Shown piece by piece: positions 17,617-61,210 of a DNA stretch of 64,000 bases (position 1 is the first letter of the stretch; the number at the start of each line of letters is the position of its first letter). Below the pieces are notes generated by a model. It did not search any database and was not told where the DNA came from. It saw only the letters and a list, made by a program, of their open reading frames with translations. The DNA comes from Paracoccaceae bacterium (GTDB lineage Bacteria > Pseudomonadota > Alphaproteobacteria > Rhodobacterales > Rhodobacteraceae): positions 186,001-250,000 of the forward strand of contig SDAL01000004.1 in NCBI GenBank assembly GCA_004153385.1. The letters are read 5' to 3'. A program made the translations under genes and the position numbers.

Positions 17617-17875
17617 TGTCTTCTCCTTGTCCATCGTGCTTCGCGCGGCACCCGTGCGCCGTACGGGGGCACGCTGCCATGTTCATATGTCTGGCGCGAC
17701 CATGTTGAAAGTAGCAATTTTATTCACCATCGCCCGCCCAGAGTATGCGTGACCGTGGGGAGATAGTCACGGCTGCGCGACCATCTGGAAAACTCTCCCG
17801 AAACCCTTTGTGGATTGGCGCGCTTCGCGGTAGATACATACCCGATATGCGCCTAGAGAAAGACAGGATTAAAGT

Positions 17876-18781
17876 ATGGATTGGGACAAACTGCGAATTT
17901 TCCACGCGGTTGCGGACGCAGGGTCGCTGACCCATGCAGGTGACTCGCTCCATCTCTCGCAATCCGCCGTCAGCCGCCAGATCCGTGCATTGGAAGAAAT
18001 GCTCGGCACGACCCTGTTCCACCGCCACGCGCGCGGACTGATATTGACAGAGCAGGGTGAACTGCTTTTTGACGCAACGTCAATCATGGCCAAGAAGCTG
18101 GATTCTGCCTCCGCCAAAATTCGCGATTCCGAAGAGGAGGTTTACGGCAATCTGCGCGTCACCTCGACAACAGGTTTCGGCACGATGTGGCTCGCCCCGC
18201 GACTCAACAAGCTTTACGAGAAATATCCGGAGCTGAAGATCGATCTGATGCTGGAAGAACGGGTTCTTGATCTGCCGATGCGCGAAGCCGACGTCGCGAT
18301 CCGCATGAAAGAGCCCGCGCAGGCCGATCTTGTGCGCAAACGCCTTTTGAACATCAGAATGCGGTTTTATGCCACCGCTGAATATCTGGCGCGCCACGGC
18401 ACACCGCAGACGCTGGAAGAACTGGGCGATCACAGGCTGATCTGTCAAAGCCCGTCGGTGCCACAGGTGGCAGCAGGCGCTGCACTGGCCCAACGTGCGC
18501 TGGCCTATGATATGCCCTCGACCCTGACCGTGAATAACTACTTCGGCATTTTGCAGGCCGTTATAAATCATGTGGGGATCGGCATACTTCCCGATTATCT
18601 GGCCGTTGAAAACAGTATCCAGCGCGTTCTGCCGGACGTGGAATCGGGTGAGGTGCCGGTATTCCTCGCCTATCCCGAAGAGCTGCGCCAATCCCGTCGT
18701 GTGACCGCGTTTCGTGATTTCATGCAAGAAGAGCTGCTCGCCTATCGCCGCCATCAGGCGAGCGAGGCCGAAAAATCCTAA
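17876..18781 (+). CDS. LysR-family transcriptional regulator
   Basis: The N-terminal winged helix covers residues 1-60 (LRIFHAVADAGSLTHAGDSLHLSQSAVSRQIRALE) and is followed by the long linker helix. A periplasmic-binding-protein-like effector domain runs from about 90 to 290. Many roseobacters carry a close homologue next to murI. No target gene is adjacent in a divergent LysR configuration except murI (240-base gap), so the regulon is unknown. At 301 residues it is full length. Confidence 0.9.
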   Translation: MDWDKLRIFHAVADAGSLTHAGDSLHLSQSAVSRQIRALEEMLGTTLFHRHARGLILTEQGELLFDATSIMAKKLDSASAKIRDSEEEVYGNLRVTSTTGFGTMWLAPRLNKLYEKYPELKIDLMLEERVLDLPMREADVAIRMKEPAQADLVRKRLLNIRMRFYATAEYLARHGTPQTLEELGDHRLICQSPSVPQVAAGAALAQRALAYDMPSTLTVNNYFGILQAVINHVGIGILPDYLAVENSIQRVLPDVESGEVPVFLAYPEELRQSRRVTAFRDFMQEELLAYRRHQASEAEKS

Positions 18782-18840
18782 GCCATGCGTGGTATTCGCT
18801 GAGGGCATAGCAGCAATGCACTTAAATAATTGCGAATATT

Positions 18841-18869
18841 CTTGAAAAGTTTACACGCTGCCCATAAAT
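18841..18869 (+). promoter_or_regulatory. RpoH (sigma-32)-type promoter for the sRNA
   Basis: CTTGAAA at 18841-18847 and CCCATAAAT at 18861-18869 are separated by 13 bases. This closely matches the heat-shock sigma-factor consensus (CTTGAAA, 11-16 bases, CCCATnT). The predicted start of transcription, about seven bases downstream, falls on the first base pair of the sRNA hairpin. Confidence 0.6.
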
Positions 18870-18875
18870 CAGGCG

Positions 18876-18958
18876 TAGAAGATGACCGTTTGTGGAAACA
18901 CACATCATCTTCTACCTCCCTGTTGGACTTCGGCCGAGCTTTGTCTCGGCCTTTTTTT
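18876..18958 (+). ncRNA. Putative stress-induced trans-acting small RNA with anti-Shine-Dalgarno motif
   Basis: A perfect 10-bp stem (TAGAAGATGA 18876-18885 with TCATCTTCTA 18905-18914) encloses an inner TGTG-GAAA-CACA hairpin with a GNRA tetraloop. Then comes a single-stranded segment with CCTCCC (18915-18920), complementary to ribosome-binding sites. A terminator hairpin GGCCGAG/CTCGGCC followed by eight T residues ends the unit. No coding frame fits. The architecture resembles alphaproteobacterial CCUCC-motif stress sRNAs such as CcsR and the cuckoo family, but with one motif copy. Function is inferred and no expression data were seen. Confidence 0.65.
18931..18958 (+). terminator. Rho-independent terminator of the sRNA
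   Basis: The stem CGGCCGAG (18931-18938) pairs with CTCGGCC (18945-18951) and is followed by an unbroken run of eight T. No protein-coding gene ends nearby (the LysR stop is 150 bases upstream), which supports a separate short transcript. Confidence 0.85.
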
Positions 18959-19087
18959 TGGCCCAACGGGTTTCATTTCATTTTTTCTGGCCATCAGCAA
19001 GCCCCGCATCGCCCTTGATTCAATGGGTTTTTCGAAGTTTGCGCCCTTGGCACACGCATCAGTCGAACACATCGCGGTATTTTTTCG

Positions 19088-19166: not shown

Positions 19167-19754
19167 ATGACTATCGCAAAAAATATTCTTACTGGTACAA
19201 TTCTTAGCGCAACCGCACTTCTGCCGCTCGCAGCAGTTGCAGATGCCACCGGCGACGACACCACGGGTCTGGCCGCCTACAAAATGGGGATCGTTGATCC
19301 CGACGAAATGAACACCAGCAGCGCCGAAGCTGCAGCCGCTGCCGATTACTCGCAATCGGGTGACCAAGGTGGCGAAGAAGGCCTTGCCGAGATCAAGACC
19401 CAAGCCAACGACGGTGGCGATGTATCGTCCATGAACAAAACCTCCTCGGGTGAAGCTGCGCTTCCTTCCGAAGAGCAACTGAAAGACGAGACCGGCATTC
19501 TTGACAACAAGACTGCTGCAGGCTCCATGGGCTCCGTCGTTTCGGCTGATGCCTCCAACGTTGGCACGATCGAGCGTGTTGTGAACAACGGCGCCACTGA
19601 CACGATCTATATCCGCGTGTCAGAAGGTCTCGACACACCGGTTTCGATGTTCCGCGTTGATGTGCCCTCGGCTGATCTGGAAGATGGCGTTGTAGAACTG
19701 CCGTGGACCCTGTCGGCTCTGCTTGAGAGCCTCGAAAAACAACAGGATATGTAA
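19167..19754 (+). CDS. Secreted acidic protein with PRC-barrel-like C-terminal domain
   Basis: A signal peptide covers residues 1-25 (ending PLAAVA before DATGDD). Next comes a long, low-complexity, acidic Ala/Ser/Glu/Gly region (about 26-120) and then a compact beta-rich segment at about 122-190. That segment (SVVSADASNVGTIERVV, IYIRVSEG, VDVPSADL, VVELPW) follows the PRC-barrel strand pattern. AAGGAG lies seven bases before the ATG. The gene stands alone, with an ECF-type promoter and its own terminator, so it is likely a stress-induced envelope protein. The PRC assignment is by pattern and the role is unknown. Confidence 0.6.
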   Translation: MTIAKNILTGTILSATALLPLAAVADATGDDTTGLAAYKMGIVDPDEMNTSSAEAAAAADYSQSGDQGGEEGLAEIKTQANDGGDVSSMNKTSSGEAALPSEEQLKDETGILDNKTAAGSMGSVVSADASNVGTIERVVNNGATDTIYIRVSEGLDTPVSMFRVDVPSADLEDGVVELPWTLSALLESLEKQQDM

Positions 19755-60290: not shown

Positions 60291-61210
60291 TTTTGCGCCC
60301 TTGGCGATTGATCGGCGGCCTGTCCTTCGGGTTTGACCTTCAGTCCACGCATATACAGATGTTCGAACACGATCCGGTCCAGTGATTTGGTTTCATAATC
60401 CGGAAAAATGATCCGGAAGGCGCTGTCATCCAGCTGGTGATCCATCTGGTAGAAATAGCGCATCGAGCGCATTTCGCGGGCCGCGCGCGATGTAGGTGCT
60501 TTTAGGGCGAGGCTCCACCATGGGTAGCCGGTCACCTTGAATTTCTGATCCATTTGGGATGACAGGTTTTGGGCCAATTCCTCGGCTGAAAATTGCGTGC
60601 CTGGGAAGGGGACCTCGAAATAGCCTGATGTATCGTCCGCCGAGGCCACAAGCGATACCGCAACGCGGGTCAGATCTTCCAGATCGGCATGGATGTGGCG
60701 TTTCTGGGCCGGACCAAGGGCCACCACCTCGCTTTTGTGCAAACGGCTGAGCGTGATCTTGTTCATCAAGGTTTGCTGTGCGCCCGGCATGATGAAATCG
60801 CCCGCCCGCAGCAGCAGGATCGAGCGGTCCGCATCGGCCGCATCCTGATAGCGTTTTTCCGCCTCGTCGTTCAGACGGGCCCGCAGGTTGGGCGGGCTGT
60901 GCGGGCAGTTCGGCCCCCAAGGCGTACTGGTCTTGCCGTAAACGTGGAAATTGCCCGGAGCCATGATCGATGCGCCCGAATTACGGGCCGCCTTGATGAC
61001 CTCTTTCGTCATCTGGGGCAGTTCACGCTCCAGATCCAAAGTGCCGGGCGGATTCATCGCATTCACGATCCAGCGCGCCCCGCGGGCGGCCACCGACATG
61101 TCCGAGCCGCGGCGGTAGCGATCAACATCCCAGCCTGCGGCGCGAAAGGCGCGAGCGGCGGCGGCGCCAAAAAGCCCCCCCATCCCAAGGATCAGGATTC
61201 TGCGTGACAT
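60254..61210 (-). CDS. NAD(P)-dependent epimerase/reductase-like protein
   Basis: A 318-residue Rossmann protein beginning RRILILGMGGLFGAAAARAF (GxGxxG, residues 8-13). The segments VNAMNPPG and APGNFHVYG are typical of short atypical SDR or epimerase relatives. The ATG at 61210 is used over an in-frame start at 61285. It converges with the EEP gene and their ends overlap by 37 bases. The substrate is unknown. Confidence 0.75.
   Translation of the reverse strand: MSRRILILGMGGLFGAAAARAFRAAGWDVDRYRRGSDMSVAARGARWIVNAMNPPGTLDLERELPQMTKEVIKAARNSGASIMAPGNFHVYGKTSTPWGPNCPHSPPNLRARLNDEAEKRYQDAADADRSILLLRAGDFIMPGAQQTLMNKITLSRLHKSEVVALGPAQKRHIHADLEDLTRVAVSLVASADDTSGYFEVPFPGTQFSAEELAQNLSSQMDQKFKVTGYPWWSLALKAPTSRAAREMRSMRYFYQMDHQLDDSAFRIIFPDYETKSLDRIVFEHLYMRGLKVKPEGQAADQSPRAQNHGQAMSTQTIL

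Follow-up and report, generated by a model that had tools for sequence, protein, structure and literature searches.

The locus described here is very probably the SorY gene of a bacterium from the genus of Thioclava pacifica, whose RNA would start at an RpoH-type promoter, receive a second input from the neighbouring LysR-type regulator, bind Hfq and block uptake mRNAs. It lies in a 64-kb stretch of DNA (64,000 nucleotides, hereafter the window). As such, the locus is of a known kind, a SorY small RNA (sRNA); the interesting part is the wider link between this sRNA, the LsrB/VtlR regulators and the AbcR sRNAs.

Architecture of the sRNA gene

The predicted transcript comprises 84 nt, from 18876 to approximately 18959, and all of its elements lie on the forward strand. 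Upstream, an RpoH-type promoter, CTTGAA-N16-CATAAAT, was read from the sequence at 18841–18869; the same letters can equally be read as CTTGAAA-N13-CCCATAAAT, and a loose RpoH-type pattern of our own design occurs only once in the 64-kb window, at this site. The RNA opens with a 5′ hairpin (18876–18914), identified from folding, from pair changes among relatives and from the letters themselves: its arms, TAGAAGATGA (18876–18885) and TCATCTTCTA (18905–18914), form 10 perfect base pairs enclosing an inner 4-bp stem with a GAAA loop (TGTG-GAAA-CACA). A single-stranded linker, ACCTCCCTGTTGGACTT (18914–18930), follows; it is conserved among near relatives and contains the anti-Shine-Dalgarno stretch CCTCCC (18915–18920). 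The gene ends in an intrinsic terminator (18932–18959), recognized by sequence and folding, in which GGCCGAG/CTCGGCC (18932–18951) precedes eight T (18952–18959). Folding of the sRNA yielded −30 kcal/mol, compared with −16.05 ± 2.97 kcal/mol for shuffled sequences (z −4.7), and none of 200 shuffles folded equally well. Re-reading of the sequence placed the promoter, the 10-bp hairpin, the linker and the terminator where the initial annotation had put them. The window contains one anti-Shine-Dalgarno motif and one copy of the sRNA, and RpoH- and LysR-type signals precede this one gene.

The same annotation had interpreted the element by analogy with CcsR/cuckoo RNAs, with which it shares an anti-Shine-Dalgarno stretch and an RpoH-type promoter. 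Membership in this group was rejected on motif position and Rfam results, and we consider it highly improbable. Cuckoo RNAs are described as carrying CCUCCUCCC in the loops of at least two stem-loops (PMC3927594), whereas the window RNA has a single CCUCCCUG located between two stems, and in Rfam it matches SorY and SorX best. Moreover, the R. sphaeroides CcsR1–4 RNAs are reported to be made together with ccaF1 (PMC8307010), whereas the gene upstream of the window RNA encodes a LysR-type regulator.

The hairpin and terminator could also form an attenuator or leader of the gene at 19167–19754, which lies on the same strand, with the sRNA 207 nt ahead of it. Such an arrangement is exceedingly unlikely: in one relative (L002), purL starts approximately 320 nt past the sRNA core (CCTCCCTGT, that is, CCTCCC[CT][GA]T), leaving no room for this 588-bp gene, and the stretches behind the sRNA differ, by eye, among other families while the preceding gene stays the same. 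The product of the gene at 19167–19754 is 195 aa long and begins with a signal-like stretch; the gene had been labelled PRC-barrel-like, but no Pfam match was obtained at E 0.001.

Homology to SorY and distribution in Rhodobacteraceae

A search of the window with Rfam at gathering thresholds returned only a tRNA. When the thresholds were lifted, SorY (RF02651) matched 18879–18959 with E 5.7e-10 and 52.9 bits (curated cut-off 111), SorX (RF02784) matched 18871–18957 with E 3.9e-8 and 39.1 bits (cut-off 46.6), and suhB/MmgR matched at the same place and strand with E 0.0036 and 25.1 bits (cut-off 41). In the Rfam alignment, the linker and terminator are nearly identical to those of SorY and SorX. 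Our own model R1, of which the window sequence was a part, scored 107.3 bits at the sRNA as its sole match in the window. The gene was classified as SorY type from the Rfam SorY/SorX matches below the cut-off and from R1; because 52.9 bits falls short of 111, it is not filed under RF02651 as curated.

Using blastn, we found homologues of the sRNA in 32 of the 61 genomes searched, the window's own counted; they include 14 of the 15 other genomes of the window's genus and none of the 24 class genomes outside Rhodobacteraceae. A locus from one of these congeners (G001) is identical to part of a record of Thioclava pacifica DSM 10166, on which basis the window is assigned to that genus. The SorY model reached further, matching 112 of 120 Rhodobacteraceae genomes (one per genus), with a score of at least 111 bits in only one of them, G090; the Rfam cut-off, passed once among these genera, thus hides a family. 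To describe the gene context, 60 Rhodobacteraceae loci were assembled from the 30 best blastn and the 30 best SorY-model matches, corresponding to 54 distinct places, the window included. Among these best-scoring loci, the same LysR gene lies directly upstream in 58 of 60, or 52 of 54 distinct places, and is absent at L034 and L046. One locus (L024; G016:C9:60602-60649, 60788-60841) has two sRNA matches about 140–190 nt apart behind the same LysR, the second with a variant core, a tandem that recalls AbcR1/AbcR2.

In G090, the SorY match starts at C4:1632645 and the SorX match at C4:2598225. The 5′ ends published for R. sphaeroides are 1,632,642 for SorY and 2,598,224 for SorX (PMC6238624), and owing to this agreement we treat G090 as R. 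sphaeroides. The SorY locus there (L031) is preceded by a LysR gene 74% identical to that of the window and followed by purL, as in the window. At the matching place it carries the promoter CTTGAA-N16-CCTAAAT, the end of which lies, by our own reading, 7 nt ahead of the published SorY start. Once the promoters are lined up, this start agrees with the earlier proposal that the window transcript begins exactly at the hairpin. The window promoter is also close to the S. meliloti RpoH1 consensus, given as CTTGAA-N16-CCTATAT (PMC8844928). Judged by its position and promoter and by its linker and terminator, the window element is an orthologue of SorY, and this homology backs the earlier view that the sRNA has a gene of its own, is read from a sigma-32-type promoter and exposes CCUCCC.

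An RNA-first scan of the contig collection with the pattern CCTCCCTGTTNNACTN{0,3}GCCG yielded at least 119 loci. Among the 119 listed, the same strand within 1 kb upstream holds a LysR gene in 79, an OmpR-like gene (the SorX place) in 18 and neither in 22; seven of these 22 have less than 700 nt of upstream sequence, and a few are likely chance matches or misbinned records, e.g. from Streptomyces. Among the LysR-linked matches listed from other families are Azospirillum griseum, Belnapia moabensis, Falsiroseomonas tokyonensis and a Niveispirillum MAG. Four loci (L157, L162, L176 and L226) combine a SorY/SorX-like linker and terminator with neither a LysR nor an OmpR-like gene within 1 kb upstream, and are possibly further paralogues.

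The OmpR-like neighbours bear on another reading, in which the window RNA would be of SorX type, processed out of the LysR mRNA at its 3′ end and lacking a start of its own. SorX is reported to be produced from the 3′ end of the mRNA of an OmpR-like gene (PMC6238624), and such a gene stands just before the core in the 18 loci mentioned. We regard this origin as very unlikely for the window RNA, since R. sphaeroides SorY has its own promoter and a mapped start according to the same source, and a matching promoter is kept at a fixed place in relatives. The window's genome has no clear SorX: the best match to the SorX model is the SorY locus itself (39.1 bits) and the next scores 26.8 bits, where 7 of 14 controls match too.

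At the linker, TTCTACCTCCCTGTTGGACT is invariant in 13 of 13 near relatives, the remainder of the 5′ hairpin being variable, and CCTCCCTGTT is present in all 19 members of alignment A2, a set chosen for CCTCCC[CT][GA]T. As for compensatory changes in the hairpin, two-sided changes were found in 4 of 19 predicted pairs across the 13 near relatives, one pair occurring as C-G in five, U-A in four and A-U in four. We then assembled 94 distinct Rhodobacteraceae sequences, the window included, from loci L001–L060 and 80 of the 119 pattern loci. An uninterrupted helix of at least 5 bp precedes the linker in 86 of the 94, yet also in 60% of shuffles, and one of at least 7 bp in 41% of the sequences versus 13% of shuffles; the shuffles used for helix, core, box and palindrome counts preserve base composition only, and the pair table for the 94 sequences is biased in that the best helix was picked. 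To the extent that these sequences allow, the initial annotation thus survives its own test, compensatory changes among relatives; support for the hairpin over all 94 sequences is modest, the helix there often being short.

The adjacent LysR-type regulator

The initial annotation overlooked the probable role of the neighbouring LysR and the LysR-type box ahead of the promoter. The gene (17876–18781, forward strand) encodes a protein with the Pfam domains HTH_1 and LysR_substrate. Among solved structures, its best PDB match was 9HH1 (E 7.3e-72, 245 bits; next match 111 bits), which is the structure of A. tumefaciens LsrB (PMC11975290); 123 of 291 aligned positions are identical (42%). When LsrB was used as the query, this LysR came first in the window's genome (245 vs 92.6 bits), and the gene just before SorY was the best match in G090 (250 vs 125 bits). 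By these sequence comparisons, the window LysR and Agrobacterium LsrB/VtlR are reciprocal best matches and orthologues. The LsrB query matched at E 1e-60 in 220 of 385 class genomes. In 2025, LsrB was stated to be unique to Rhizobiales (PMC11975290); the matches across the class, together with the orthology, speak against that statement.

Rhizobiales lsrB is described as forming an operon with trxB (PMC11975290), and the LsrB gene as adjoining the AbcR sRNA genes in A. tumefaciens and S. meliloti (PMC7486931, PMC3712013). No trxB lies ahead of the window LysR; a racemase-type gene on the other strand is found there instead. We searched for the LysR in 142 class genomes, 77 of which matched at E 1e-60, and retained the best-scoring 60 of the 76 places outside Rhodobacteraceae. 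The TrxB CxxC motif is present upstream in 51 of these 60 loci, as opposed to 0 of 60 in the opposite-strand control, and one of the nine loci that lack it has just 45 nt of upstream sequence. The core CCTCCCTGT occurs within 700 nt downstream in 37 of the 60 (opposite strand 1 of 60, shuffles 1.4), a looser core with a required terminator in 40, and neither form in 19.

Thirty-five of the core loci have a T run, L093 and L108 being left out of the 37 for want of one, and 27 of these 35 show a small hairpin around GTCTCCCAGAC, with CTCCC in its loop, followed by the linker GAAGCCTCCCTGTT or a near form. This class-wide RNA carries a loop motif, ACGUCUCCCAGACGU, in addition to the linker, GAAGCCUCCCUGUU. 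Only 2 of the 94 Rhodobacteraceae sequences have CTCCC within the 60 nt ahead of the linker, so the loop motif is mostly missing from that family. In two of the class-wide RNAs (L091 and L098), a second CCTCCCTGTT lies 41 nt ahead of the linker copy. Rfam searches of 17 class loci returned SorX, SorY, suhB and a few weak matches to other families, none over the cut-off. None of the open-licence papers listed describes the class-wide RNA, which is weak evidence that it is absent from the literature.

The cysteine that LsrB needs against peroxide is C273 (PMC11975290). At this position, Cys was found in 0 of the 60 class LysR rows, and Ala occupies it in all 58 Rhodobacteraceae rows (52 distinct places); the C144 position holds Cys in 6 of 60 class rows and 0 of 58 Rhodobacteraceae rows. 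With C273 absent, the LysR, if it acts here, would therefore not do so via that thiol switch, and the stress input would come through RpoH. The only cysteine of the window LysR is Cys190, in LICQ. At the corresponding column, 47 of the 58 Rhodobacteraceae rows (42 of 52 distinct places) have Cys, as against none of the 60 class LysRs, and Cys190 is possibly a separate redox or metal site.

The LsrB-type box and its relation to the promoter

An LsrB/VtlR-type box, GCATAGCAGCAATGC, was assigned from pattern counts at 18805–18819 on the forward strand, starting 36 nt before the −35 element. When up to 2 mismatches are allowed over its 11 positions, the pattern GCATNGCNGNNATGC is present in 89 of the 94 Rhodobacteraceae sequences, the window included (shuffles 1.2%). 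This count is partly circular, since the consensus had first been derived by eye from these very sequences. Its start lies 35–36 nt ahead of the start of the −35 element in 85 of the 94. LsrB is reported to activate AbcR1 through GCAT-N3-TG-N3-T at −61 to −49 (PMC8844928). In its strict form this consensus turned up in 10 of the 94 (shuffles 0.8), the window's box not being among the matches; freeing one base raised the number to 84 of 94 (shuffles 2.5), a result more independent than the count of 89. The corresponding figures for the 37 class loci with a core are 6 for the strict form (shuffles 0.6) and 18 with one base freed (shuffles 2.0). With its start at −71, the window box is placed roughly a helix turn beyond the AbcR1 box at −61.

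In the whole genome, the box pattern has three exact matches, which is about chance by our own arithmetic, and its use as a genome-wide marker was dropped; one of the matches (L066) lies inside a ppx-like reading frame. A near match at G000:C1:851934 (L085) is flanked by a gene and a reading frame that, by eye, are aldehyde dehydrogenase-like and regulator-like, respectively. Ahead of the LysR gene itself, an LTTR-like box, ACATACCCGATATGC (17836–17850, no strand assigned), matches GCATANCNGNNATGC with one mismatch. With up to one mismatch, GCATANCNGNNATGC gives 102 strand matches in the genome, palindromic places being counted twice, and 36 in the reversed control. Autoregulation of LysR through ACATACCCGATATGC is possible, the indication from this pattern being weak.

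These data also allow the sRNA to be weighed as a gene controlled by RpoH alone, with the LysR adjacency an inherited gene order and the LysR exerting no control. S. meliloti AbcR2 offers a precedent, being RpoH1-controlled with LsrB not needed (PMC8844928); the window −35 and −10 elements are of RpoH type, and C273 is missing from all LysR rows compared. Several observations nonetheless make this reading unlikely: the LsrB-type box keeps its distance from the −35 element in Rhodobacteraceae, and 25 of the 37 class loci have a palindrome, ATGC-N5-9-GCAT, ahead of the sRNA, compared with 0.6 in shuffles (59 of the 94 Rhodobacteraceae sequences contain it too). In addition, the gene order is kept over much of the class, for which a functional link is hard to do without. 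We therefore retain the reading in which LysR and RpoH both act on the SorY-type gene.

Proposed function and candidate targets

We propose that RNA polymerase with an RpoH-type sigma factor would start at approximately 18876 under heat or oxidative stress, and that the LsrB/VtlR-type LysR probably binds the box at 18805–18819, raising transcription. The 84-nt RNA is expected to bind Hfq, and its linker, CCUCCCUGUU, would pair with purine-rich ribosome sites, mainly of mRNAs for substrate uptake, the translation of which would be blocked. Substrate uptake would in this way be lowered when oxidative damage threatens. In R. sphaeroides, SorY is described as an Hfq-dependent, singlet-oxygen sRNA (PMC7866481) and is listed among the sRNAs controlled by RpoE, RpoHI and RpoHII; it is transcribed from its own gene with no further processing, and its target is the mRNA of a malate transporter (PMC8307010), an action on takP mRNA known from published work.

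The genome contains 10 occurrences of the pattern AGGGAGGT-N3-10-ATG, two of which are the sRNA's own complement; the reversed control gives 1. One gene of interest encodes a ChvE-like sugar-binding protein: AGGGAGG stands before its start in 9 of the 9 genomes that have the gene (E 1e-100; 25 searched), all of them genus members, the window's genome included. A PhaR-like gene has AGGGAGG in 1 of 16 genus members and GGGGAGG in 11 of 16. Since AGGGAGG is in itself a good ribosome site, the ChvE-like gene is only a candidate target; its kind fits, by analogy, with the targets of AbcR.

Comparison with known systems

Among described sRNAs, SorY of R. sphaeroides (RF02651) is the closest: it has the same linker, ACCUCCCUGUUGGACUU, the same terminator, a single 5′ hairpin, its own RpoH-type promoter and the LysR/purL flanks. 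It differs in the sequence of the 5′ hairpin and in that the purL start is nearer to the sRNA (L031). SorX of R. sphaeroides (RF02784) shares the type of linker and terminator, but lies at the 3′ end of an OmpR-like gene, whereas the window sRNA is preceded by a LysR gene. The alpha-r8 RNAs (MmgR/suhB, RF00519; SisA–D in Caulobacter) likewise have a single-stranded UUUCCUCCCU after a weak hairpin, followed by a terminator; they are reported to be found on Hfq, and SisA to silence mRNAs (PMC12559287). Unlike the window RNA, they are linked to an N-formylglutamate amidohydrolase gene, and the window match to their model (25.1 bits) is below the cut-off of 41.

The comparison with AbcR1/AbcR2 (alpha-r15, RF02345; Rhizobiaceae and Brucellaceae) carries the wider argument. 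Membership of the window sRNA in this family by the ar15 model was rejected, as the model gave no match to it up to E 10. In class genomes, the model matched 0 of 58 in one set and gave three weak matches in 385, none over the cut-off, with nine candidates scored per genome listed and 0 of 14 controls matched, so that these counts do not establish that ar15 is absent. We take these sets to be without Rhizobiaceae, because identity does not exceed 55% in the LsrB matches listed for the 385 class genomes. None of the open-licence papers listed joins SorY or SorX with AbcR1, LsrB or VtlR, which is weak evidence that no such report exists; work on SorY concerns phototrophs, and work on AbcR, carried out separately, concerns plant symbionts and animal pathogens.

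On balance, we lean towards an old trxB–lsrB/vtlR–anti-Shine-Dalgarno sRNA module that already existed early in alphaproteobacterial history, with SorY and AbcR as its local versions and the class-wide RNA between them. The LsrB thiol switch would then be a late rhizobial trait, the ancestral regulator would read another signal, and the LysR and RpoH inputs would have merged in Rhodobacteraceae. If there is one such module, what is learned about control, about binding to Hfq and about targets could be transferred between SorY and AbcR, LsrB would not be limited to Rhizobiales, and the original signal of the LysR becomes a question that harmless marine bacteria could serve to test.

The AbcR genes adjoin the LsrB/VtlR gene, and the window sRNA lies directly downstream of an LsrB orthologue. 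AbcR RNAs are described as having anti-Shine-Dalgarno stretches, one of which is placed between two stem-loops, like the window linker, with LsrB (for AbcR1) and RpoH1 (for AbcR2) as inputs and transport proteins as many of the targets (PMC7486931, PMC8844928). AbcR comprises two copies and two motifs, CUCCUCCC in a loop and UUCCCCUC between stems, whereas a single motif and a single copy were seen in the window. The class-wide RNA outside Rhodobacteraceae combines loop and linker motifs, which is the arrangement described for AbcR (PMC8844928). Set against the published descriptions of AbcR, the gene order, the box and the core observed here suggest that SorY and AbcR may descend from a common ancestor.
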